In this document: positions 5,972-59,204 of the stretch, piece by piece | Layout of the letters: each line of letters starts with the position of its first letter | How positions within the stretch are numbered: the first letter of the stretch is position 1 | Assembly (NCBI GenBank): GCA_016196225.1 | Contig: JACPXZ010000025.1 | Coordinates: 1 to 64,000, forward strand | Direction: 5' to 3' | Length of the DNA stretch: 64,000 bases | From: Candidatus Peregrinibacteria bacterium | GTDB lineage: Bacteria; Patescibacteriota; Gracilibacteria; Peribacterales; Peribacteraceae | The notes under the pieces: generated by a model | Database searches by the model: none | Told to the model about the DNA's origin: nothing | What the model saw: only the letters and a program-made list of their open reading frames with translations | Made by a program: the position numbers and the translations under genes

Positions 5972-6044
5972 TAACTGCAGTATACATCGCCTCTTGCTCA
6001 AGTTCTGCGGGTGTGCTTTGATGGAGTCTTTTCTGTGAAGAGTA

Positions 6045-6073
6045 TTGCAATTATATTAAAAATGTTATATAAT
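6045..6073 (+). promoter_or_regulatory. sigma70-type promoter for the DHH gene
   Basis: TTGCAA - 17 bp - TATAAT, 24 bp upstream of the ATG at 6098. Confidence 0.75.
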
Positions 6074-6097
6074 GATAAGTTCATATTTGGATCTCTT

Positions 6098-7390
6098 ATG
6101 ACCCTCTCACAACCCGACATTTCCGCAGCAGCCAAAGCAATTGAGGAGCATCACCGCATCCTGATCACTCCGCATGCAAACGTGGATCCGGATGGTTTGT
6201 CAAGTGCGTTGGCGCTTTATCATATGCTCAGGGCATTGGGGAAAGATGCAACGGTGATCTGCCCGGACACTCTGCCGGAGTCCCTTAATTTTCTCCCGGG
6301 TTTTGCGGCACTCGAAGAGGGGGTGAAAGAATCGGAAAATTTTGTCGTCACGATCAATCTGGAGGATGGGATCGAAGTCGATAAGCTCCGTTATACAGTG
6401 GAAGATAACAAGGTGAACATCATCGTGGTGCCCCGCAAGGGGCGGATAAAACCGTCACAGGTTCAACTGGGAGCAGGGGAGCGCCCGTATGATCTGATTA
6501 TCGTGATCGATACGGCAGATCTCACTCTCTTGGGATCACTCTATACCGATCATATTGATCTCTTCTCGGAGGTCCCGATTCTTAATATCGATCATCACAT
6601 CAGTAATACTCGCTTTGGTCAGATTCAACTGATTGATCCCACGGCGGCGTCTGCAACGGAAGTGCTCTATCAATGGTTTATGCAGATCCCTTTTTATAAG
6701 GAACAGATCACACCGGATCTCGCCACCCTTCTCCTCACGGGGCTCATCACCGATACGCGGAGCTTTCAGAATCCGAATACCACGCCGCGCTCGCTCGAAG
6801 TCGCGGCCGATCTCCTCGATCGCGGGGCGCGTCAGCAGGAAATCATTCAGCATATTTATAAAACGAAGCCTCTTTCGACATTACGTATCTGGGGACGGGC
6901 ATTGAACCATCTCCAAATTGATGCGGAGGCAGGAGTGGTGTGGTCCGCAATATCCGAGGAGGATCTCACGGAGATGGGGGCTGATCCGAAGGAGACGAGC
7001 GGAATCCTGGATGAACTGATCTCGACCATCCCCGGAGCGCATATCTATATTCTCTTTACCGAAGTCGCTGAAAAGAATCTTAAAGCAAGTGCCCGCTCGA
7101 GCGCGGAAGTTGATATCAGTCAGCTCGCGGGGAAGCTTTTTGGGGGCGGAGGACATGCGCGGGCGGCAGGATTCAAACGATCCGGATACTCTAACTTTCA
7201 ATTGGAAGTGCTGGAGTGTGTACAGAGGATCAAAGAGGCATTGAAAAAAGAAGAGGTTTCCGAGAATTTGGAAATCCCAATCACCAATCACCAATCACCA
7301 AATAAATCCCAAATCCCAAATCCCAAACCTGCTCAACCTACAAAACCTTCCGGTCCCATTGATATCATCAAAGAGCTTGGTTCGAGTTAA
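6098..7390 (+). CDS. DHH/DHHA1 family phosphoesterase (nanoRNase/pAp phosphatase-like)
   Basis: HANVDPDGLSSALAL, DTAD, NIDHHISN and GGGGHARAAGF motifs. Confidence 0.9.
   Translation: MTLSQPDISAAAKAIEEHHRILITPHANVDPDGLSSALALYHMLRALGKDATVICPDTLPESLNFLPGFAALEEGVKESENFVVTINLEDGIEVDKLRYTVEDNKVNIIVVPRKGRIKPSQVQLGAGERPYDLIIVIDTADLTLLGSLYTDHIDLFSEVPILNIDHHISNTRFGQIQLIDPTAASATEVLYQWFMQIPFYKEQITPDLATLLLTGLITDTRSFQNPNTTPRSLEVAADLLDRGARQQEIIQHIYKTKPLSTLRIWGRALNHLQIDAEAGVVWSAISEEDLTEMGADPKETSGILDELISTIPGAHIYILFTEVAEKNLKASARSSAEVDISQLAGKLFGGGGHARAAGFKRSGYSNFQLEVLECVQRIKEALKKEEVSENLEIPITNHQSPNKSQIPNPKPAQPTKPSGPIDIIKELGSS
7272..7324. repeat. heptamer tandem repeats (CAATCAC)x3 and (AAATCCC)x3 in the DHH gene 3' end
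   Basis: CAATCAC at 7278-7298; AAATCCC at 7304-7324. Confidence 0.9.
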
Positions 7391-7392
7391 GG

Positions 7393-7429
7393 TACCCCTC
7401 CCTTTGGGAGGGGATTAAGGGGAGGGGGT
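7393..7429 (+). repeat. three-armed G/C-biased palindromic element, copy a1
   Basis: tacccctccctttgggaggggattaaggggagggggt. Confidence 0.8.
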
Positions 7430-7456
7430 AGGGGCACATGTAAATTTTGATACGAG

Positions 7457-7492
7457 CCCCCCCTCCTTTATCCTCCCCCGTCGGGGGAGGTA
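7457..7492 (-). repeat. three-armed palindromic element, copy a2 (inverted relative to a1)
   Basis: ccccccctcctttatcctcccccgtcgggggaggta. Confidence 0.8.
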
Positions 7493-7555
7493 TCCTGCTA
7501 GGCTTCTTTTCGGAGAAATATCTGATATGCTGGAATCGGCTTTTCAATAAGCATT

Positions 7556-9768: not shown

Positions 9769-9808
9769 TTCCCTCTCCCAATGGGGAGAGGGCCAGGGAG
9801 AGGGGGTC
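9769..9808 (+). repeat. three-armed palindromic element, copy b
   Basis: ttccctctcccaatggggagagggccagggagagggggtc. Confidence 0.88.
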
Positions 9809-9839
9809 CTTATGCATTTGCGTACGCAATGCTTTTTTC

Positions 9840-10046: not shown

Positions 10047-10112
10047 ACATGTCACCCTGAGGTGCGACGAACGCAGTGAGGAGCCTCGAAGGGGCATAAA
10101 ACGAATATTCCT
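10047..10112. repeat. 66-bp dispersed repeat, inverted relative to 28781-28846
   Basis: acatgtcaccctgaggtgcgacgaacgcagtgaggagcctcgaagggGcataaaaCgaatattcct; reverse complement at 28781-28846 with 2 differences. Confidence 0.93.
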
Positions 10113-11456: not shown

Positions 11457-13328
11457 TTATGGTGCGCCTCCTGCCGGTCTGGGGGGAGGAGGGGGTTTAT
11501 TGATATTGTCTGCAATTTGCCCGATTGTGGCGTCGGTAAGACCGATGGTATCCTTCTTGGTCTGACTCAATGCATTAGTGGTACTTAAGCCGTGGAGAAA
11601 ATTAGCAACATTTGTTTTATCAACGTTCGTTTTTCCTGCGATATTAATACGATCAATGGCTTCTTTGATCTTGTTATCTCTATTCGCTCCCGTATCTTTA
11701 ACCGCTGCCGCAAGGTCTTTCACAGCAGCTCCCATGTTGTTGACCGCTGAATTGTCCGTTTCTAGATGTGCAGCGCTCTCTCGAACCCTTTTCTCTTCGG
11801 GGGGTGTTCCACGTGCACGATCACCCATCCCCTTGATTGCCTCCCCCAAATTTCTACTGTTGTCGATGGCGCCTTCCCATGCTTTTGGCGAAGCCATCTT
11901 CATGGCGCCGAGTAGTGATGGGGAAGTCTTAGAACCGGGAATGAGAGGAATCGATGAGGCGGGGATCTTCCACGCGAGGCGACCAACAGTCTTCCCCGCA
12001 TCGGCGATTTGTCCCGATATGCCTCCGACGATCGGTGTCCCTTTGAGGACGCTGAACACGCCGATCCAGAGGACGAGTTGGGCCATGAGGAACCAAATGA
12101 GATCGTAGAGATTAGATACCATGGGCAAGCCGAGTTTTATATTCTTCAATAAATCTGCTCCCGTCCCTTGGGCACCGCCGGCACATTGCAGTTGCGCGCC
12201 GGCCTGGATGAGGATAAACCCGACGGCGAGAGGGATCGCGACGAGCGCGGGGAGAAAGGCGAATTTGAGGAAGGTGTCCCAGATGGCCTTGGGCCCCTCG
12301 CCGCCGATAAATTTTTGGACCTTGTCTCCGCCGATAAAGGCAAGGAAAGCAAACGGCATAAAGGCGATCGTGATCCAGAGCACGGGGATACGGACGAACA
12401 TCGCCATCGTTATGGCTGCCAACGGGAAGACGAGAGAGAATGCGATGACAACGATAAGTCCCATTTTTATGAGTAAAACCAGCTGATCGGCAAATTGATT
12501 GGGGCCGGGAAAGGTAATCGGAACATTTGCCATTTGTTGCAATGCGGCATGGTTGATAATGAGACCGTTAATGATCGATGCGTGTCCGGCCGTCTGACTA
12601 AAGTTTATGGGCCCTTTTTTATAGCAGATCAGATTTTGGCCGATACATTCCCATCCGACGACAGATGGGAGGAGGGGGGTAGCGGTGGGGTAGGAAAGAC
12701 AAGGGTCCGGTGGCGGAGTGCTTGAAGTGCAATCCTTGACAAAGAAGTCCATATTGGTAATCCCCTCATAGGGAATCGAAGTGGGGACGCCGCCGATACT
12801 TTTGCAAAATTGAGGATTGGTTCCGAGCAGCATCGCGGGGATGTCATAGACGGCGGCTGTAAGAACATTGGCGACATCGAGGATCACGCGGGGGAAGAAC
12901 CACGAAAAGTTGACAAGGATCACCGCCAAGACAAACTTCCCAAGATATTCTTTGATGAATTCTTTTTTCGCGGTAATGACCATGTAGACGGCAACACCGG
13001 CGAGAACAAAGGCGAAAATGACATTCATGATATCCCGCGAGAGTTGCCAAATGTTGTTGAGTGATGTTTCAAGGTTACTCGTTCCTGCTCCTGATCTTGC
13101 CATATCGAAGATGAAGGTAGGATCGAGAAAGACCGTGAGGAGACTGAAGAAGACAAAGGAAAGCGTTGTTGCCATCATAATGAGGAATCCCATGGCTGAG
13201 GTAGCATCGTTTCCAAGCCCGCTCAACATATCCCCGAAGGGATTGGCGGCGTGCGCAGTCTCGATAAAGAGAATGCTTATGAATGTGACTGTGCTGCAAT
13301 GCAGGAGGAATTTATATTTTTGTGACAT
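11457..13328 (-). CDS. VirB6/TrbL-like multi-TM protein (type IV secretion-like)
   Basis: Signal-like N-terminus MSQKYKFLLHCSTVTFISILFIETAHAANPFGDML and many TM helices; family call is by pattern only. Confidence 0.65.
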   Translation of the reverse strand: MSQKYKFLLHCSTVTFISILFIETAHAANPFGDMLSGLGNDATSAMGFLIMMATTLSFVFFSLLTVFLDPTFIFDMARSGAGTSNLETSLNNIWQLSRDIMNVIFAFVLAGVAVYMVITAKKEFIKEYLGKFVLAVILVNFSWFFPRVILDVANVLTAAVYDIPAMLLGTNPQFCKSIGGVPTSIPYEGITNMDFFVKDCTSSTPPPDPCLSYPTATPLLPSVVGWECIGQNLICYKKGPINFSQTAGHASIINGLIINHAALQQMANVPITFPGPNQFADQLVLLIKMGLIVVIAFSLVFPLAAITMAMFVRIPVLWITIAFMPFAFLAFIGGDKVQKFIGGEGPKAIWDTFLKFAFLPALVAIPLAVGFILIQAGAQLQCAGGAQGTGADLLKNIKLGLPMVSNLYDLIWFLMAQLVLWIGVFSVLKGTPIVGGISGQIADAGKTVGRLAWKIPASSIPLIPGSKTSPSLLGAMKMASPKAWEGAIDNSRNLGEAIKGMGDRARGTPPEEKRVRESAAHLETDNSAVNNMGAAVKDLAAAVKDTGANRDNKIKEAIDRINIAGKTNVDKTNVANFLHGLSTTNALSQTKKDTIGLTDATIGQIADNINKPPPPPRPAGGAP

Positions 13329-13368
13329 TCGTATAAGTATAGCAGAATTTGGGGGGGAGGAGTAGTCA

Positions 13369-13407
13369 GATCCCCTCTCCCTAACCCCCTCTCCGATGGG
13401 GAGGGAA
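13369..13407 (-). repeat. three-armed palindromic element, copy c
   Basis: Reverse complement ttccctccccatcggagagggggttagggagaggggatc. Confidence 0.85.
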
Positions 13408-15192: not shown

Positions 15193-16230
15193 GTGCGATA
15201 TCTTCTTATTGGGAATTACGGCGTCGGTAACCTCGGTGATGAGGCTCTCCGGGGGTATTTTTTGGATGCTTTTCCAGCGGCGCCCTGTAGTGATGCGAAA
15301 GCATCTACTACTGGGGAAGTGGAGTGGGTGGTGGTGTCGACAGATGTTCCTCGGTTGCCGTTGGGAGCGCGATCATTCTTTGGAACACCGTGGTGGAAGA
15401 CCGTACGGGCATATGTGAAATCGGATGGTATTGTCTTTGGTGGTGGATCACTTTTTACGGACAGCGAATCGATAAAAGCCCCGCTTCTTTGGTGGTGGCA
15501 TGCGGTGGTTGCATGGGTCTTCAGGAAACCAATTTTTTTGGCTTTTCAGGGAGTGGGACCCTTCCGAACAACATTGGGAGAGTGGCTCACGCGATGGGTA
15601 GTGCAGCATGCAACATTTGTTTCTGTTCGTGATCGTGCTTCATTCGACCGAGTACGACAATGGCGGAGCGATATTGTCCTTACATTCGATCCTGTTCTGA
15701 TTTCCCTTTCCTCGGCAGAGTACCCCCCCCATTGGGGAGGGATGAAGGGGGGGGGTGGAGATTTGTTTGACCCCCTCTCCCTATCCCTCTCCCCTAGGGA
15801 GAGGGAAATGTTAGTTGTCATCCCCCGTTCGAATTCAGGTGCCGTATTTATCGATCGAGCTCTGGCCATTTACAACCAACAATCGTTTGATCATGTTTTG
15901 ATTCTCTCTCTCCAGCCGAATTGCTCTTGCGAAAAAGCAGTCTGTAAAAAAATTCAGGAACACATTCCTCCTGCTCAAATTCTCTCTGTCCATTCTCTGA
16001 GTGAATTTTCTCACATCATGGTATCCGCCTCTTTTATCCTTTCGCAGCGCTATCATGGAGCACTCGCAGCGCTGGCCCTGGGGGTTCCTTTTGAAACGAT
16101 GGCGCAGGCGGAAGGGGACAAACTGTCCATGCTCAAGAATACCTCAAAAGAAGAGGCTCTAAAACTTGTGCAGGACGGTGAACATGCACTACGTTTAGTT
16201 CTCCTTCGCAGAGCTTCGCAGAATATATGA
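15193..16230 (+). CDS. polysaccharide pyruvyl transferase family protein (GTG start)
   Basis: GNYGVGNLGDEALR, GGGSLFTD, S.RYHGALAALALGVPF motifs; carries an in-frame repeat insertion. Confidence 0.85.
   Translation: MRYLLIGNYGVGNLGDEALRGYFLDAFPAAPCSDAKASTTGEVEWVVVSTDVPRLPLGARSFFGTPWWKTVRAYVKSDGIVFGGGSLFTDSESIKAPLLWWWHAVVAWVFRKPIFLAFQGVGPFRTTLGEWLTRWVVQHATFVSVRDRASFDRVRQWRSDIVLTFDPVLISLSSAEYPPHWGGMKGGGGDLFDPLSLSLSPREREMLVVIPRSNSGAVFIDRALAIYNQQSFDHVLILSLQPNCSCEKAVCKKIQEHIPPAQILSVHSLSEFSHIMVSASFILSQRYHGALAALALGVPFETMAQAEGDKLSMLKNTSKEEALKLVQDGEHALRLVLLRRASQNI
15722..15756 (+). repeat. three-armed palindromic element, copy d1, inside CDS
   Basis: acccccccccattggggagggatgaagggggggggt-type sequence. 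Confidence 0.7.
15769..15807 (-). repeat. three-armed palindromic element, copy d2, inside CDS
   Basis: gaccccctctccctatccctctcccctagggagagggaa. Confidence 0.88.
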
Positions 16231-28732: not shown

Positions 28733-28843
28733 TGTCATGCTGAGGTGCGAGGCTTCAGCCGAGCCTCGAAGCATCATGAAAGGAATATTCATTTTATGAC
28801 CCTTCGAGGCTCCTCACTGCGTTCGTCGCACCTCAGGGTGACA
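28733..28843. repeat. 111-bp imperfect palindrome containing one copy of the 66-bp dispersed repeat
   Basis: TGTCATGCTGAGGTGCGAGG... centre GAATATTC ...GTCGCACCTCAGGGTGACA. Confidence 0.9.
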
Positions 28844-30665
28844 TGTTTTGTATGTTGTCAGGAAGAACCTGCTGACGGGAATTTTCCAGCATATGGAAAT
28901 CGCGTGTCAGGATATGCGGGCCAGAAGTCCCCGCATGGGTGAGGTTGGCGATGACGAACTGATCGGGGACATGCGACAGGATACCGACGGTGTACTGCAT
29001 GGTATGAGTGGTGAGGGGGGTGAGAGCATCGATTTGCCACAGGATATGACGTGGGCCAATGAGTCCACCTTGAGCATTTTTTATGCAAACCGCAGTGGGA
29101 TTGAGCATTTCGACAACATCGATATCTTGCATAGCTGCTTCAAAGCGATTTGAGATTTCTATCTCATAGGTTATGGTTCCTCGTTCGCTCCCCGTACAAA
29201 ATTGTAATGTCCATCGATCCAAATCGATCATGGGTTTTGCGGATGCAAGCGTGCTGTATATCCATCCATTGCCATCCCAAACCCAATTGCCACTTCTATC
29301 CGGAGGAAGGATTTTGGCAGCGGTAGAAGTTTTGTCGGTCGATTCTTTTTGAGACTTGTCATCGTCTCCTCCTCCATCACCGGATGTCCCACCGCCGGTT
29401 CCTCCTCCAAAGAATCCGCCACCGCCCGTTGTTCCTCCTGTTCCACCACCGGTTGTCCCGCCACCGCTCCCCCCAATACCTCCTCCTGTTCCACCACCGG
29501 TTCCCCCACTCGTTCCACCACCGGCTCCCCCCGTGGATCCTCCACCGGTTGATCTGCTGTCTTTGATTGGACACGGAAAGATAACGTCAAGAGGGAGGTC
29601 GCATACATGCAAGGGGTCTCGGTATGAGCCATTGTACGTTGCCCATCCTTGACCACCGCTTCCACCGGAGGATCCGAAACCGGGGTACCCACCGGAGTTC
29701 CCACCGTTATTTTTTTTATCCGTTGTATTGTTACCTCCGAGTGGGAGATGAGACGATTGGGGCAATGGGATAGTCGTGGTTGGTTGACATGCGACAGAAG
29801 TCCGTGCCGTATTGGTACGATAAACGCCGTAGGAGTTTTGACTCCCGCTATAGACCTGTGCGCGCCATTCGAGAGAGGCAGGACAGGAGAAAGCCGAAGC
29901 AATGGGCATAATAAACGTAAGGACGCGGGATTCACCGGATCGGAGGGTGAAGTTGGTGCATGTGATCATGCTTCCGCTTATCTGGCAAAAACGGGGAATA
30001 TCCTGGACAGTGAGACCGGACGGGAGCGACATCAGCATGGTGACGAACGCAGCATTGTCGGTGCCGGCATTGGTGACGATTGCGCTTAAAGTCACCGTAT
30101 CACCGGTGATAATCGTTTGAGGGGCCGTCAGATTGATCTGAAGATCCACTCCCTGTCGGTACGATCGATTGGGCGGGTCATAACAGCTGATGCGCGTCGA
30201 GAGAGCAGGACTGATGTTATCACCGGCGAATGTATCCGATGATCCGGCACTTACGCGTGCGGAGCTGGTGATCGTCCGGGGACAAAAGGCGCTATTCGTT
30301 TGGATAAGACGATCAGTGGTGAAGTTGAGCGGAATCGACTGTGAGCCAGGCTGAACAAGGTCATACGTGCAAATGATTTCATTGATGTATTGCTTGCATG
30401 TACTGTGGGAAAAACGGTCGCGCCATCGGATTCCATCCGGGATTGCATACGTCACCTGCACGTTCCGGGCGTAGCCGGATCCGTCATTGGTGAGGATGAT
30501 GGTATAGGTGAAGTCATCGCCGGACTGTACGTCGGTCGGACCAAGGAGGTTTGCTGCAACATATCCACCACCATTGAACCCCGGCGGATATCGAAGTGCC
30601 TCTGCGTTTTGGGGAGTGCAGAGGATAATCAAAACAGCACCGATCAGGAGAAAAGGATGCTTCAT
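28833..30665 (-). CDS. exported DUF11-type repeat protein with Gly/Thr/Ser-rich linker
   Basis: Signal peptide; DUF11-like YTIILTNDGSGYARNVQVTYAIPDGI; low-complexity SGGGSTGGAGGG...; stop codon falls within a dispersed repeat. Confidence 0.8.
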   Translation of the reverse strand: MKHPFLLIGAVLIILCTPQNAEALRYPPGFNGGGYVAANLLGPTDVQSGDDFTYTIILTNDGSGYARNVQVTYAIPDGIRWRDRFSHSTCKQYINEIICTYDLVQPGSQSIPLNFTTDRLIQTNSAFCPRTITSSARVSAGSSDTFAGDNISPALSTRISCYDPPNRSYRQGVDLQINLTAPQTIITGDTVTLSAIVTNAGTDNAAFVTMLMSLPSGLTVQDIPRFCQISGSMITCTNFTLRSGESRVLTFIMPIASAFSCPASLEWRAQVYSGSQNSYGVYRTNTARTSVACQPTTTIPLPQSSHLPLGGNNTTDKKNNGGNSGGYPGFGSSGGSGGQGWATYNGSYRDPLHVCDLPLDVIFPCPIKDSRSTGGGSTGGAGGGTSGGTGGGTGGGIGGSGGGTTGGGTGGTTGGGGFFGGGTGGGTSGDGGGDDDKSQKESTDKTSTAAKILPPDRSGNWVWDGNGWIYSTLASAKPMIDLDRWTLQFCTGSERGTITYEIEISNRFEAAMQDIDVVEMLNPTAVCIKNAQGGLIGPRHILWQIDALTPLTTHTMQYTVGILSHVPDQFVIANLTHAGTSGPHILTRDFHMLENSRQQVLPDNIQNMSP

Positions 30666-31125: not shown

Positions 31126-31362
31126 ATGTTTCACGTATATCTTCTCCGGAGCATCAAAAATCCAGAAATGACCTACGTTGGATTCACAACGAAGGATATT
31201 CGCGAACGCATGGAGGAACACAATCGTGGCCTCACAAAAACGACTGCGCCGCATATTCCATGGTCGATCGAAACGGTTGTTTCGTTTCGAGATTTGAAAA
31301 AGGCGCAGGAGTTTGAACAGTATTTACACGTCGTTCGCGAACGACGTGGCCAGCCACACTAA
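31126..31362 (+). CDS. GIY-YIG endonuclease family protein, C-terminus replaced by palindrome-encoded residues
   Basis: FHVYLLRSIKNPEMTYVGFTTKDIRERMEEHNRG; ends HVVRERRGQPH. Confidence 0.85.
   Translation: MFHVYLLRSIKNPEMTYVGFTTKDIRERMEEHNRGLTKTTAPHIPWSIETVVSFRDLKKAQEFEQYLHVVRERRGQPH
31327..31348. repeat. perfect 22-bp palindrome, second copy at 59182-59203
   Basis: CACGTCGTTCGCGAACGACGTG. Confidence 0.95.
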
Positions 31363-34027: not shown

Positions 34028-34066
34028 TTCCCTCCCCCTTGAGGGGAGGGTCCGGGAGAGGGGGTC
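34028..34066 (+). repeat. three-armed palindromic element, copy e
   Basis: ttccctcccccttgaggggagggtccgggagagggggtc. Confidence 0.88.
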
Positions 34067-34184
34067 AAAGAATATTTGCCCCTCTTTTTTACCCGCGCAC
34101 CAGTCGCTTCGCTCCGATGCGGGGTTACGCCAATAGGAGATATGTTGGTTCCTGTAAGGAGTTCTCACGGGATGTTTCAGGGCT

Positions 34185-34778: not shown

Positions 34779-34849
34779 ACCGATAGTATACCGTTTTTTC
34801 CGGGGGCTCGATACTGGCACGTATCTTAAAAATATTTCACAATGGATGT

Positions 34850-35674
34850 ATGTCGAAGAAACTTATTGTTATCCTTGGGCCAACCGCATCAGGGAAGACC
34901 GAGTTTTCGATAAATATTGCAAGGCTATTAAATAATTCCCTCCCCCTTGGGGGGAGGGTTAGAGAGAGGGGGTCTAAAAAATTCAATATCGAAATCATTA
35001 ACGCTGATTCTCGCCAGTTATACAAATACATGGATATCGGGACGGCGAAAATTTCGACGAAGGAGATGCAAGGAGTTCCGCATCATCTTTTTTCGGTTCT
35101 TGGTCCCAAGGAAAAAGTGACCGTTGGGTGGTACAAAGAGAAGGCGGAACGGGTGATTGAGGATGTTCTTGCTCGTGGCAATATTCCCATCCTTGTCGGC
35201 GGTTCCATGTTATATATCAGCGCGATCACGGATGGCTATGTGTTCACGGGGAAGGGGGGCAAAAGGGCGACTCCCGTTCCATATGATCTTTACATGATCG
35301 GCATGGATATTCCACGACCGCTCCTCTATCGCCGAATCAATGAACGGACAAAAACACTTTTAGAATCCGGATGGATTGGAGAGGTACAAAGACTCTTGGG
35401 GATGGGATATACCGTGAACGATCCCGGGCTTAAGAGTCACGGGTATCGTGAAATCGCTGATGCGATTTTAAATCATCAATCACCCGTCACACAATTACCG
35501 ATAATCTCCGCCAAAATACGACAGTACGCCAAACGGCAGATGACCTGGTGGCGACATGACGAGCGGATCCGATGGATTAATCCTGTTGGTCTTCCTCGAT
35601 CTCTTCCTGAAGATCTGCGAGCTTTTTGTGAGTCTTCTCTTCGACGCGGACATACTCATTCACCGGTTCCATAA
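34850..35674 (+). CDS. miaA: tRNA dimethylallyltransferase
   Basis: [39 protein letters not shown]; in-frame repeat insertion [14 protein letters not shown]. Confidence 0.94.
34936..34974 (+). repeat. three-armed palindromic element, copy f, inside miaA
   Basis: ttccctcccccttggggggagggttagagagagggggtc. Confidence 0.9.
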
Positions 35675-39832: not shown

Positions 39833-40813
39833 TCAGTTCCCTTCGTACGGATTAATATGTTCAATCATATACCGAACTGCGGGCTCGAGAGCGCTGCCTG
39901 CACGGATTTCAAAATGCCGGTCACCGGACCACGGACGCAAGCCGACGATGGCAGAGCCTTGTACTTGAACATTCGTCGTTTCCTGATTTTCCAAAAAGAG
40001 ATCGCCCGGGAGGAGGTTGATAGAGATGTGGCCGTCACCGAGATTGAGAACGGGAGAATTGCCGACTTCAACATGCCAGAGGGTGCTTGTTGTTGTCCCA
40101 AAGGATTTGTACCACCAGTTGCGATGGACGGGGATGCAGAAACCGATGTGAGAAGAACAATATTCCTGTGTCCAGTGTTCGGCAGAGAAGTTTTCTTTGG
40201 CCATTGCTTCGATGACTTCTGTAAGTTGTTCCGTCCATTCGGCAGGCTCCCGTTCGGCAGGCTCAGGGCCTACGGCAAGATCCTCGGTAGACTCCGTCGG
40301 TTGTGTGGGTTCTGTGGGGATAGGTTGGATAGGTTTTTCAGGTTCAGCAGGTTTTTCTTCGGCGGTGCCCTGTACCGAGCTTTGCTCTGGTACTGGGGAC
40401 TCTTCCTGCGGTGGGAGGATTAACTTGGTTTTTTCGACGCGCATGATGATCCCGTTGGCTTCGACAGTGGGACGGGTAGAGCCGGAGACTTCCACTTCTT
40501 CGCCGACATATCCATTCAAATCGACGTTTTCACTTTCCAGAAGTAAAAATCGTCTGTCCGAGAGGAGCAGGCGATGAGATCCTTGCATGTAAATGCTGAT
40601 GCCTGCAGGTTGAACAATCCCGCGGTAGGTGACGTTGTGGGTCTCGCGCTCTTGAATAGCTTCACTAGCTGCATTGGCTTCGTTAGGGGAGGAATCTTCT
40701 GATTCTGCTGTTTGACTTGCAGTCGAAGAAGATACTTGCGAAGGAGGACCGACCCGAACGGCGCAGGCAGTGAGTGTAAGGAAGCCAATGATGATGGGGA
40801 ACAGTCGGATCAT
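39833..40813 (-). CDS. putative lipoprotein
   Basis: MIRLFPIIIGFLTLTACAVRVG lipobox; Pro/Glu/Thr-rich linker. Confidence 0.75.
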   Translation of the reverse strand: MIRLFPIIIGFLTLTACAVRVGPPSQVSSSTASQTAESEDSSPNEANAASEAIQERETHNVTYRGIVQPAGISIYMQGSHRLLLSDRRFLLLESENVDLNGYVGEEVEVSGSTRPTVEANGIIMRVEKTKLILPPQEESPVPEQSSVQGTAEEKPAEPEKPIQPIPTEPTQPTESTEDLAVGPEPAEREPAEWTEQLTEVIEAMAKENFSAEHWTQEYCSSHIGFCIPVHRNWWYKSFGTTTSTLWHVEVGNSPVLNLGDGHISINLLPGDLFLENQETTNVQVQGSAIVGLRPWSGDRHFEIRAGSALEPAVRYMIEHINPYEGN

Positions 40814-43678: not shown

Positions 43679-45976
43679 CTACACATCTGCGAGCTTCTTT
43701 TTAATGTCCTCACTTTTTGGGAATTTACCAGGGGGACAACTGCGGGAGGCGAAGATTTCGCGTAAATGTTCAAGGTATCCCTTTTGATGGAGAAGATGCT
43801 GAATGTATGGGAGGGCAGATTCGCGGAAACGCGAATGTTGCACATGATGAGCAAGTTCGTAGAGAGCAGAGACGAAGGCATCTTCGCCGCCGGAGACTTC
43901 CACTGTGAGTTCATCTTTAACGGAATCGACAATGGACTCTGTATCGATTCCTGCCATGATCATGAGATCAGTTCCTTTTGCCGATGGGAAGTAATGGCAG
44001 AGTCCCAATCGCCGGAGAGAGCAGGGGAGGGCAAAATCGGCGATGATATCCGCGATTTGTGAGGAGAGTCCTCCTTCGATGTTGTGATCTTCGACGACAA
44101 TGAGATGGCGGGTCTCGAGTGCTGCTTTGATGATTGCAGATGCATCAATGGGACGGACTTGGGCAATATTCAAAACGCGAATCGATTTTTTAAAAGAATC
44201 TGCGGCGGCGACTGCCGCATGCACGGTGATTCCTGTTGCAATAATTGTTGCGCTGTCTTCGTTCGTTCCTTTCCCGCGAATTATGTCCGCTGTGCCATCG
44301 AAAACATAGTCTGTGTCATAAAAAGCGTTACCGGCAGCATTTTTTAATTGTTCATGGCCTGAGCGTCCCGTAAAGACATAGACGGATTCGCGGCCGTCGG
44401 AGATGAGCTCAAATGCTTTTTCGGCCATAGCTGCTGCTTGATTGCTATCGGCAGGGGACCAGATACGCGTGTGACGAAAAGGAATATTCAAGTAGTTTTG
44501 TTCCTGATGGGTTTCGCCGTCTTCGCCGACGTTCACGCCGCTATGGGTACAGTCATATATCACACCGCAGCGGGTGTGGCCGCAGTTGATGTCGATGAGG
44601 CGGGCATTGGCTCGGGCTTCGTTGGTGCCGAATGCGGCGAACGTATAGGTGACAGGGAGCAATCCGACTTGCCGCATCCCGGCGGCCATCATGAACATAT
44701 TGGCCTCGGCGACACCAACGTTGAGTACGCTGTTAGGGAATTCTTTTTGAACTTTATCAAATCCTCCCGAGCCCGCGAGATCGGCATGGAGGACAAAAAT
44801 ACGAGGATCACTTTTCATGAGATTTTTGATATGCACGGCACCAAAATCCTGCCGAGCGGCACCTTTTTCGAGGGTAACCGTTCTTTTGTATCCTTTGGGG
44901 AGACTCCAAGAGATGGCAAAATTTGTTTGTGTTGCTTGACCGGACTCGTATCGTGCTTTTTCCTTACTTCGATATGGTTCGTACTTCTTGATAATCTCAT
45001 CAAGAGGAGGGAGATCCTTCAACGCACGTTCTGCGATCTCGGACTTGAGAGGAGTCCCGTGAAAATTCTCCTTACCGGTATTGGATCCTTCTTCCATCAC
45101 CTTCACCCCATGCCCCATGGTGGTGTAGTAGCAGATAAACGTTGGACGAGAACCTCCTCTCCCAGAGGGGTGCGATTGAGGTGAGGGGGTCCGAGTTGCA
45201 CATTTTAAAGCAGCGACTACTTGTCCCGGATCATTCCCATCCTGTACCTCAATCACTTGCCATCCGGTGGCCTTGGCAATCGCGGCAAAGTCCGCGGCAA
45301 CGGTGTGACTTGGCATATCGCTTAATTGAATGTCATTGAAGTCGCCGTGGACGACGAGATTATTGAGCTTTAAATGTGCTGCGAGACGAAATGCTTCCTG
45401 GATTTGTCCCTCCTGACTGTCTCCATCGGCCATGAGGACGTCTACGAATCCCGGTTGCTTCAGATATTTGAGTCCCAGTGCAGCGCCGAGACCGTTACTT
45501 ACTCCTTTGCCTAGTGGGCCTGCCCCAAAGGGGATATCGCCGATACCGGCTTCGGCATGACCGGGAAGGCCTTGTGGAGTGCGAAAGGTATCGATGATCG
45601 CATGAGGGGATTTGAGTCTGAGATCACTACCTTCGCGTCCAAAGAGCCACTGGAGACCATACGCGAGCAGAGAGAGATGCCCCGCGCTCATGCGCAGTGG
45701 CTGATCAACGTGCGGATCACGGATCTTGCTTAAAAAATATGCAAAAGTGAAAGACGAGAGCGGGCCACCGGGATGGCCAGAGCTGTGCCTAGTCGGAGCC
45801 TGGATCGCCAGATGACACATGATCTTGTGTGCGAGATCATATGCATCACGTTCTTCTTTTGTAAGTTTTAGAGCATCATTGGGGCCGATCCAAATAGATT
45901 CGATTGTTGAGGAGGATTCGAGGATACGGTGGAGAGAAGCTGGCGCATTTTTCAGCGTTTTGGGATCGGGACGCAT
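43679..45976 (-). CDS. tkt: transketolase
   Basis: RHSSGHPGGPLSS, MADGDSQEGQIQEAFRLAAH, VGVAEANMFMMAAGM; in-frame repeat insertion TRTPSPQSHPSGRGGS. Confidence 0.95.
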   Translation of the reverse strand: MRPDPKTLKNAPASLHRILESSSTIESIWIGPNDALKLTKEERDAYDLAHKIMCHLAIQAPTRHSSGHPGGPLSSFTFAYFLSKIRDPHVDQPLRMSAGHLSLLAYGLQWLFGREGSDLRLKSPHAIIDTFRTPQGLPGHAEAGIGDIPFGAGPLGKGVSNGLGAALGLKYLKQPGFVDVLMADGDSQEGQIQEAFRLAAHLKLNNLVVHGDFNDIQLSDMPSHTVAADFAAIAKATGWQVIEVQDGNDPGQVVAALKCATRTPSPQSHPSGRGGSRPTFICYYTTMGHGVKVMEEGSNTGKENFHGTPLKSEIAERALKDLPPLDEIIKKYEPYRSKEKARYESGQATQTNFAISWSLPKGYKRTVTLEKGAARQDFGAVHIKNLMKSDPRIFVLHADLAGSGGFDKVQKEFPNSVLNVGVAEANMFMMAAGMRQVGLLPVTYTFAAFGTNEARANARLIDINCGHTRCGVIYDCTHSGVNVGEDGETHQEQNYLNIPFRHTRIWSPADSNQAAAMAEKAFELISDGRESVYVFTGRSGHEQLKNAAGNAFYDTDYVFDGTADIIRGKGTNEDSATIIATGITVHAAVAAADSFKKSIRVLNIAQVRPIDASAIIKAALETRHLIVVEDHNIEGGLSSQIADIIADFALPCSLRRLGLCHYFPSAKGTDLMIMAGIDTESIVDSVKDELTVEVSGGEDAFVSALYELAHHVQHSRFRESALPYIQHLLHQKGYLEHLREIFASRSCPPGKFPKSEDIKKKLADV
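45151..45191 (+). repeat. three-armed palindromic element, copy g, inside tkt (antisense to tkt)
   Basis: aacctcctctcccagaggggtgcgattgaggtgagggggtc. Confidence 0.8.
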
Positions 45977-47330: not shown

Positions 47331-49115
47331 CTACTTCACATGGACCACTCCTGTTGCCCACGGACTTAAGTGATCGTGAAAGGTCCAATCACCGGGTTCG
47401 GTAAACGTGAACGAGAAGGTTTGGCTCCGTTGCAACGGGCGCTTGGCATCGAAGACGGGAAGGAGTTCGTGGGTTGGGTGCACATCCGAGGCCGGCCAAA
47501 AGAGTTCTTCCGTTTCATTAATCCAGGTCACGGTTTCGCCTGCACTGATAGTCACTTTGGTGGGATCGAAGGACTGTCCGGTGAGACGAATAAGGACAGT
47601 GCCGATGAGAGCACGAGAAGAGGTTTGGGCGGAAGCGGCCGAAGGTCCTGAGCCTGCCGAATGGGATGATGCGGGGGGAGGCATGGATGGTCCGAGGGAG
47701 GGGAGTTCCAGTGGTGGGGGGGGCGTGTTTGAAAAGAAACGCAGTGGCCACGAAATGATGGCGACGAGCTTGGATAGCACTCCCGGTTTTTGTGTGGCGG
47801 CCTCGATAGCCTTTGCCTTCGCATGAACAATTTGTTCGGATTCGTCGATCGCGGCACAGGTATCCTGGAATTCTTTTGGAATAAATTGTTCGCATAGTGA
47901 ACCTATCTCTGGTTGAGGCCGTCCATGGTAATGCCATTCATTGCTGATCTTTTGATAACATGCTCGCCGATAATCTTCTTCGATCATTGAACAGAAGTCA
48001 GTCGCATTCTGAAACTGATTGTAGTTCATGGCATTGCCGATGGCGGCCATGTAACAAACGGGGAGGGTGCTTAAGGGGAATGATTGGCAGATCTTCACTG
48101 CGGTATTCATCGAAAAGGGGCCTACAAACGCATCGTCGCTCCGCGCGTTCACGATCACGGTCTGCCAGCCGGGGTTTGTGACAAATTGGGCAAGGCTCAA
48201 GATGCAGGATGGGAGGACGGACGGGTTCGCTTTAAGGCATTCTTTAGCGGCAGCGGTAATGTCGTTGCTGTGAACTTTCATAAGATTTGCCGCCTGACTC
48301 TCGTAGCATTGCCACTGATAGGTGAGGGGGATGCGACTGCAGGGGGCGAGGGGGTCATCGTCGAAAAACACACCCTCTCGTTCCAGACCCGACTGAACGG
48401 CATTGATATTTTCCATAAAGACTCCCTGCCAACACCCCTGAGCGGCTTGTTCGTGGGAGAGTGTGTCGCAGAACCGGATCGATGCGAAGGGGTCGTTTTT
48501 CATGGCCATCATGATGCCGTGACCAACCCCGTGATAGCAGTAAAATCGACTGCGCCAGCGGGGTTCAGTGGTGATCCCTTCGCAGATTTCCTCGGCGATA
48601 TCTTTTGGGGTCTTCTCCTCAGCGGTTCCAAGCGCTTGTTCAAAGTAGCCATGCTGACAGGCATAGAGGTAATCAACGGGACATTCTATAAATGCGTTTC
48701 CGTTAATGCTGTGTACTTTGGCATGGGTGCGTCCAATGATATGACCGAGTTCGTGACCGTCGGTATTCAGTCCAAAACGTGGACTTTCCATAAGAAGATC
48801 GTCGAGTGTTCGTATCCCGATAACGGGTCCTTCTTTCAGGGTTGCATGAATAATCAATGCCTGGACGCAGTCGTAACTTGGCGTGCAAAGCAGAGCAAAA
48901 CAATTGTTGCGTTCGATGGGTGTAGAGAGAGTTAAACAGCTCTGAATGGAGGCGGAAAGTGAGGGAAGAGTGACAGGAACCTTTCGAACAATATCGAGTT
49001 GGATATCGGGATGGTCCTCCCCAGCATGCGCCAAGAGGGTTACGGGGAGAAGTAGGGCGATGAGCAGTACTTGAGTCACAGGAGCACAGTACTGAAGGGG
49101 TATGGGGATTTGCAA
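47331..49115 (-). CDS. exported Cys/His-rich protein with C-terminal cupredoxin-like domain
   Basis: Signal peptide; CQHGYFEQAL, CYHGVGHGIMMA, CWQGVFMEN; C-terminal SFDPTKVTISAGETVTWIN...FHDHLSPWATGVVHVK. Confidence 0.78.
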   Translation of the reverse strand: MQIPIPLQYCAPVTQVLLIALLLPVTLLAHAGEDHPDIQLDIVRKVPVTLPSLSASIQSCLTLSTPIERNNCFALLCTPSYDCVQALIIHATLKEGPVIGIRTLDDLLMESPRFGLNTDGHELGHIIGRTHAKVHSINGNAFIECPVDYLYACQHGYFEQALGTAEEKTPKDIAEEICEGITTEPRWRSRFYCYHGVGHGIMMAMKNDPFASIRFCDTLSHEQAAQGCWQGVFMENINAVQSGLEREGVFFDDDPLAPCSRIPLTYQWQCYESQAANLMKVHSNDITAAAKECLKANPSVLPSCILSLAQFVTNPGWQTVIVNARSDDAFVGPFSMNTAVKICQSFPLSTLPVCYMAAIGNAMNYNQFQNATDFCSMIEEDYRRACYQKISNEWHYHGRPQPEIGSLCEQFIPKEFQDTCAAIDESEQIVHAKAKAIEAATQKPGVLSKLVAIISWPLRFFSNTPPPPLELPSLGPSMPPPASSHSAGSGPSAASAQTSSRALIGTVLIRLTGQSFDPTKVTISAGETVTWINETEELFWPASDVHPTHELLPVFDAKRPLQRSQTFSFTFTEPGDWTFHDHLSPWATGVVHVK

Positions 49116-59144: not shown

Positions 59145-59180
59145 GGGACCAGAAGGGTAACATAATCCATGGTGGCAGAG

Positions 59181-59204
59181 CCACGTCGTTCGCGAACGAC
59201 GTGG
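59181..59204. repeat. perfect 24-bp palindrome overlapping the CCA end of tRNA-Ser(GCT)
   Basis: CCACGTCGTTCGCGAACGACGTGG. Confidence 0.95.

Follow-up and report, generated by a model that had tools for sequence, protein, structure and literature searches.

In-frame copies of boxC/PIT/TM repeats in conserved genes of a Candidatus Peregrinibacteria bacterium

The three-armed palindromes dispersed through the genome of this Candidatus Peregrinibacteria bacterium are not a new repeat but belong to the boxC/PIT/TM_ECO family, and some of them lie in frame inside conserved protein genes. We consider it probable (roughly three chances in four) that in this lineage they are non-autonomous, essentially selfish elements that inserted as units, in the manner of the Rickettsia palindromic elements (RPE). 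The boxC/PIT repeats have been known for decades, and to our knowledge no spreading route or function has been established for them. The window, i.e. the whole 64,000-nt stretch of DNA analyzed here, is contig C37 of a draft assembly of 1,085,031 bases in 38 contigs (97.7% completeness), in which small contigs may be contaminants.

Family membership, copy number and arrangement

The repeat unit measures 39-42 nt, most commonly 39 nt, and consists of three arms, which read CCCTCTCCC / GGGAGAGGG / GGG[A/T]GAGGG in subfamily A, CCCCTCCC / GGGAGGGG / GGGGAGGG in subfamily B, and CCTCCCCC / GGGGGAGG / GGAGGGGG in subfamily C; an intermediate form beside these three is termed A'. The original prediction listed nine sites of a ~40-bp family in the window, and reading back the sequence located every one of them at the expected coordinates and on the expected strand. 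The nine copies and the open reading frames (ORFs) that host some of them are the following.

7392..7432, plus strand: TM copy, subfamily B, arms CCCCTCCC / GGGAGGGG / GGGGAGGGGG; left half of a facing pair
7453..7493, minus strand: TM copy, subfamily C, CCTCCCCC / GGGGGAGG; right half of the facing pair, intergenic, upstream of infB
9769..9810, plus strand: TM copy, subfamily A, CCCTCTCCC / GGGAGAGGG / GGGAGAGGG; 2 nt past the infB stop
13367..13407, minus strand: TM copy, subfamily A variant; intergenic, upstream of minus-strand ORF 11457-13328
15193..16230, plus strand: csaB-like polysaccharide pyruvyl transferase ORF, host of an in-frame pair
15718..15760, plus strand: TM copy, degenerate; left half of a facing pair, open in frame with the csaB-like ORF and probably translated
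15767..15807, minus strand: TM copy, subfamily A; right half of the pair, reads DPLSLSLSPRERE within the csaB-like ORF
34028..34068, plus strand: TM copy, subfamily A'; intergenic
34787..35671, plus strand: miaA open frame (tRNA dimethylallyltransferase, TIGR00174), host of a copy
34936..34976, plus strand: TM copy, subfamily A'; in frame in miaA, 13 residues, after the P-loop helix and before the conserved segment that follows
43679..45976, minus strand: transketolase gene, host of a copy; Transketolase_N (53-312) covers the site, about residue 261
45151..45193, plus strand: TM copy, degenerate; antisense yet in frame within the transketolase gene

The consensus that had been quoted for the nine sites describes those at 9769 and 15769(-) and, with small changes, those at 13369(-), 34028 and 34936; it does not describe 7393, 7457(-) and 15722, which are related subfamilies with arms CCCCTCCC or CCTCCCCC. 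The copy at 7392..7432 starts 2 nt past the stop of a DHH-family ORF (6011-7390).

The TM_ECO repeat, earlier named boxC and PIT, has the pattern 5'-CCCTCNCCCN3-6GGGNGAGGGN3GGGNGAGGG[GTC-] (Holder et al. 2015, PMC4666352). The pattern tolerates at most one stem mismatch; 15769(-) and 9769(+) fit it exactly, subfamily A copies fit it genome-wide, and subfamilies B and C follow the same plan in different letters. Moreover, the covariance model R2, which was built only from this genome with the hairpin structure stated and which served all genome-wide work, recovers three E. coli K-12 copies (37.5-40.8 bits, E 1.5e-10 to 1.5e-11). This pattern fit and the cross-recognition of the K-12 copies place the element in the known family; Rfam holds no matching family.

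The repeats here share with boxC/PIT/TM_ECO their arm sequences and lengths, loop and linker lengths, both kinds of linker (TTA and CC-) and the terminal G. In both, copies form facing inverted pairs, vary patchily in number and have no mobility gene beside them. TM_ECO was counted at 3610 copies in 262 proteobacterial genomes, shows no promoter, terminator or transposase association, forms facing pairs in E. coli, and was described as always intergenic (PMC4666352). In contrast, the present host lies outside Proteobacteria, in a family of small genomes, three arm subfamilies with mirror covariation occur in one genome, the third arm is often GGGAGAGGG, and about a quarter of the copies lie in frame inside genes. 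A simple hexamer gene model placed 21 of 77 copies within predicted genes, 50 in intergenic positions and 6 at the edges of genes; "about a quarter" is approximate, because this model missed miaA, whose copy, like that in the transketolase gene, comes in addition to the 21. We treat an exclusively intergenic location as a trait of the E. coli set and not as part of the family definition.

A first model, R1, matched 9 of 9 sites in the window, seven of them with E-values no higher than 2e-9 and the two degenerate ones more weakly (15718-15760, E 3e-4; 45151-45193, E 3e-3). As the same seven copies had been used to build R1 (15722 and 45151 were omitted), their scores are partly circular and serve only as a consistency check; in addition, the first automatic alignment behind this model (A1) misplaced the arms. 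Independent support for the family comes from the exact core CCCTCTCCC-N2-12-GGGAGAGGG, which recurs in the rest of the genome and is found at 17 places in all, with 0 in a reversed control. R2 returned 104 matches genome-wide at E <= 0.01, with E-values down to 1e-16, and hand removal of opposite-strand hairpin echoes and addition of two weak window copies left about 86 places. As the weakest entries are doubtful and a short calibration yields rough E-values, we give the total as about 80 copies in the 1.085-Mb genome. Their arm spacing is conserved, in agreement with the original view of a dispersed, structured, non-autonomous repeat, and, as that view also held, no transposase lies beside the copies.

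The facing inverted pairs noted earlier are likewise borne out. Close pairs number 12, compared with about 1.3 expected at random, and 11 of these face each other (+/-), with GTC ends inward and a spacing of 49 to 128 nt, whereas relative G012 has pairs in the opposite arrangement, 67-78 nt apart. Copies are also nested within copies in two places (L133 and L140), in each case subfamily C inside subfamily A', and the nested pair of L133 is in frame in tsaE. Across the genera of the family, copy number is uneven, ranging from 0 to 81, and a match at E <= 1e-6 turned up in 30 of the 287 genomes that were sampled throughout the phylum; this patchy spread across the phylum appears to be new.

Other palindromes interrupt TM copies in five places (L005, L008, L009, L014 and L040). 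A second palindromic repeat, TTCGGCAGGCTCAGG(G/A)C, is present in the window at 40248-40276 and 47638-47666 and also in L008, L009, L127 and L131; it is sometimes inserted in the TM linker, including within rnhB. The window further contains a 66-nt inverted repeat pair, 97% complementary, at 10047-10112 and 28781-28846 (18.7 kb apart), which is probably another dispersed palindrome, since the copy at 28761-28812 is itself a hairpin (GAGCCTCGAAG...CTTCGAGGCTC). An identical 24-nt palindrome, CACGTCGTTCGCGAACGACGTG(GC), lies at 31327-31350 and 59180-59203, beside tRNA-Gln and tRNA-Ser genes.

In-frame copies and empty sites

At least 19 conserved genes carry in-frame copies, three of them within the window, namely the csaB-like, miaA and transketolase genes. 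The csaB-like gene runs in frame through the facing pair at 15718-15807, and it is exactly there that the alignments of relatives break; in a multiple alignment, 19 relatives are without the net insert of about 22 residues. Its absence from all 19 makes insertion far likelier than deletion, even though one alignment cannot separate the two. In miaA, the alignment to a solved MiaA ends at residue 46 and restarts at 63, flanking the copy at 34936, and the copy at 45151 falls in the first transketolase domain. Solved homologues or domain models placed further in-frame copies in leuS, ileS, purD, mnmA, rnhB, rpe, folP, sufS, an ABC ATPase, tsaE, ATP-citrate lyase, a glycosyltransferase, pckA, an alpha/beta hydrolase and two more glycosyltransferases. 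In the purD and rpe alignments, the insert consists of repeat-derived letters in a poorly matching stretch and not of a clean gap. A FemAB-like gene (L040) is an additional, less certain case beyond the 19.

Reciprocal empty sites were found in leuS. The copy in this genome (G000) follows ...YDLPVKEVV and that in the relative G008 follows ...RFVQRIWGLV; each of the two is without the other's copy, and the other aligned relatives are without either. G008 also carries copies in murB and in a glycosyltransferase. Empty sites, whose comparison in sister genomes had been named as a check on the element, are seen in relatives at the protein level in csaB and leuS. We infer from the open frames and the conserved flanks that the inserts would be translated.

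At two boxC loci of E. coli, tauD-hemB and hrpB-mrcB, no clean 39-nt empty site could be read, and no target duplication of the kind that, with terminal inverted repeats, marks a MITE; what separates the alleles is either the exchange of a longer segment or the reduction of the pair to one hairpin. Out-of-frame disruption of genes was also considered. Five of the most suspicious same-strand neighbor pairs were scanned for domains; wherever these were found (ligA, der, aroF-like, mfd and ftsH), the two ORFs were not parts of a single gene, and 3 of the 10 ORFs (one side of three pairs) had no domain.

In-frame copies of boxC/PIT/TM repeats in conserved genes appear to be new: in the literature covered, which excludes most subscription journals, we found no report of in-frame insertion for these repeats or for this lineage. 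In-frame repeat insertion as such is already known from the RPE, palindromic repeats that lie in frame in conserved protein genes and are tolerated and presumably neutral (PMC2229807). The present repeats have in common with the RPE this placement and the lack of a known transposase; the RPE, however, are 105-146 bp long, with terminal inverted repeats of about 12 bp and no triplex arm (PMC2229807), compared with the 39-42 nt of the TM unit. The likeness is one of behavior and not of membership, and we claim no relationship in sequence. The 39-nt unit corresponds to a whole number of codons and has several open frames among its six, features that would favor its survival in genes. Copies probably persist where the reading frame survives and the insert lies in a loop or linker that can tolerate it.

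Separately, some LeuS proteins of relatives contain other domains. Those of G010:C53 (L230/L071), G002:C37 (L073/L237) and G030:C8 (L098) have an in-frame Y1_Tnp domain (PF01797, IS200-like HUH transposase) where the editing (CP1) domain begins, close to LeuS residue 238. A serine-hydrolase domain occupies roughly this site in the LeuS of G036 (L232), and in G042 (L236) the LeuS frame is enlarged, with a NUDIX domain further on.

A resident RAYT as an unlikely mover

A REP/REPIN-type element moved in trans by a resident RAYT (TnpA_REP, a Y1 transposase) is an unlikely alternative to selfish insertion of the RPE kind. The repeats resemble REP/REPIN elements in being small structured palindromes (20-40 nt in REP/REPIN) that form doublets, with intragenic units in some REP families and no dedicated transposase for the CGTC families (PMC2817692, PMC3733652), and Y1_Tnp matches occur in this genome and in 14 of 24 relatives tested. 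They differ in having a third arm, in lacking the GTAG/CGTC tag and in showing no RAYT association: their ends read TT/TA/CA and GGTC/GGTA, with no unpaired GTAG or CGTC.

The RAYT/TnpA-like partner envisaged in the original prediction was sought by searching PF01797 in this genome and the 24 relatives and by inspecting 33 Y1 loci for flanking copies. Only 2 of the 33 have copies within about 1.5 kb, which is about the expectation from copy density, and none is flanked by a pair. Four relatives that are at least 98% complete (G012, G019, G027 and G028) carry 53, 58, 24 and 28 copies, respectively, and no Y1_Tnp, whereas G026, with six Y1 matches, has zero copies. Of the four PF01797 matches in this genome, two form a damaged pair whose contig also bears an IS630-like gene, the third is a fragment, and the fourth is an intact RAYT-like gene (L018, G000:C4:327-3641) with different REPs of its own. 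On the strength of this survey and of the copy-rich relatives free of Y1, we reject a RAYT as the general mover; since such relatives lack PF01797, a co-resident RAYT is unnecessary today, and a past or unrelated enzyme may have acted.

L018 has a REP of the GTAG type (TGTAGTCGCCCGATTTATCGGGCGACTACA) whose copies its reading frame crosses, so that the peptide LPDKSGDY recurs. The gene scores 71.3 bits with NCBIfam NF047646, under the cut-off of 80, and its 4.3-kb contig may be a contaminant.

The third arm and a possible route of spread

In the alignment of copies, pairing is complete (100%) in the hairpin columns and two of the pairs show compensatory changes; the linker and terminal GTC are conserved. 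The third arm does not merely duplicate the second arm but is its mirror, as an antiparallel purine strand has to be. With C-G.G, T-A.A and T-A.T as the allowed purine-motif triads (alignment A5), 171 of 176 cells are allowed, compared with 159 of 176 for the best register of the alternative hairpin. When the copies are scored one by one, the triplex is favored in 24 and the alternative hairpin in 2, and 37 score equally; the frequent arm GGGTGAGGG gives a mismatch in the alternative hairpin and is allowed in the triplex. By these scores, the third arm is better fitted by a predicted reverse-Hoogsteen (purine-motif) third strand than by a second hairpin, so that the original proposal of two mutually exclusive hairpins is the weaker reading and a switch to the alternative hairpin was rejected both per copy and on A5.

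Three-way covariation was found at columns 8/22/32 and 10/20/34, two positions that involve all three arms; because the copies share ancestry, it represents a few independent changes and not dozens. This covariation suggests that the third strand is either constrained or co-copied. Three subfamilies that covary across all three arms, as purine-motif triads would predict, appear to be new. In E. coli, in-vivo footprinting did not support a stable triplex (PMC4666352).

The poorer fit of the alternative hairpin also bears on a cis-regulatory role, in which the element would act in RNA or DNA as a terminator, mRNA 3'-end stabilizer or attenuator, with the third arm toggling two hairpins. Several copies start a few nucleotides past a stop codon (7392 and 9769), and on inspection the four G-runs with 3-nt loops could also make a quadruplex. 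Nevertheless, copies occur in both orientations, within genes and between convergent genes, and in E. coli neither promoter nor terminator activity was seen for PIT elements (earlier work summarized in PMC4666352); we regard such a role as even less likely than a resident RAYT. Low-complexity G/C-rich sequence of no common descent, despite the simple base usage (C/T on one side, G/A on the other), is refuted by the core counts (17 exact matches, none for the reversed control) and the genome-wide R2 search (E-values down to 1e-16), together with the fixed arm spacing, the conserved linker and terminal GTC, and the fully paired hairpin columns with their compensatory changes, which leave it a negligible chance.

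In the preferred reading, of selfish units inserted as wholes, the elements can fold as single strands: the C-rich arm pairs with a G-rich arm, and the third G-rich arm could fold back as an antiparallel purine-motif third strand. The mover is the least certain part: rather than a resident RAYT, we favor a possibly lost or trans-acting process on single-stranded DNA that would recognize the folded element, acting either while the DNA replicates or through a transposase that the genome does not carry today. A bolder version holds that the boxC/PIT/TM repeats are mobile protein-coding palindromes that entered housekeeping genes of this lineage in frame, on repeated and independent occasions, with no need for a resident Y1 transposase and perhaps by a process acting on the triplex-folded single strand; it is possible, with the odds somewhat against it.

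In summary, the boxC/PIT/TM repeat would work in this lineage like a Rickettsia palindromic element built on boxC sequence. The in-frame copies and the empty sites in relatives are direct evidence of gain at defined positions, and these protein-anchored sites are where insertion junctions should become readable once genomes of the same genus are compared. The covariation of three arms offers evidence from natural sequences for a constraint on the third strand, beyond the reach of in-vitro work alone. For annotation, the peptides PSPLPSPxGRGK, SLSxGERVRVRGS and PHPNPLPxGEG inside enzymes point to repeat-derived inserts.
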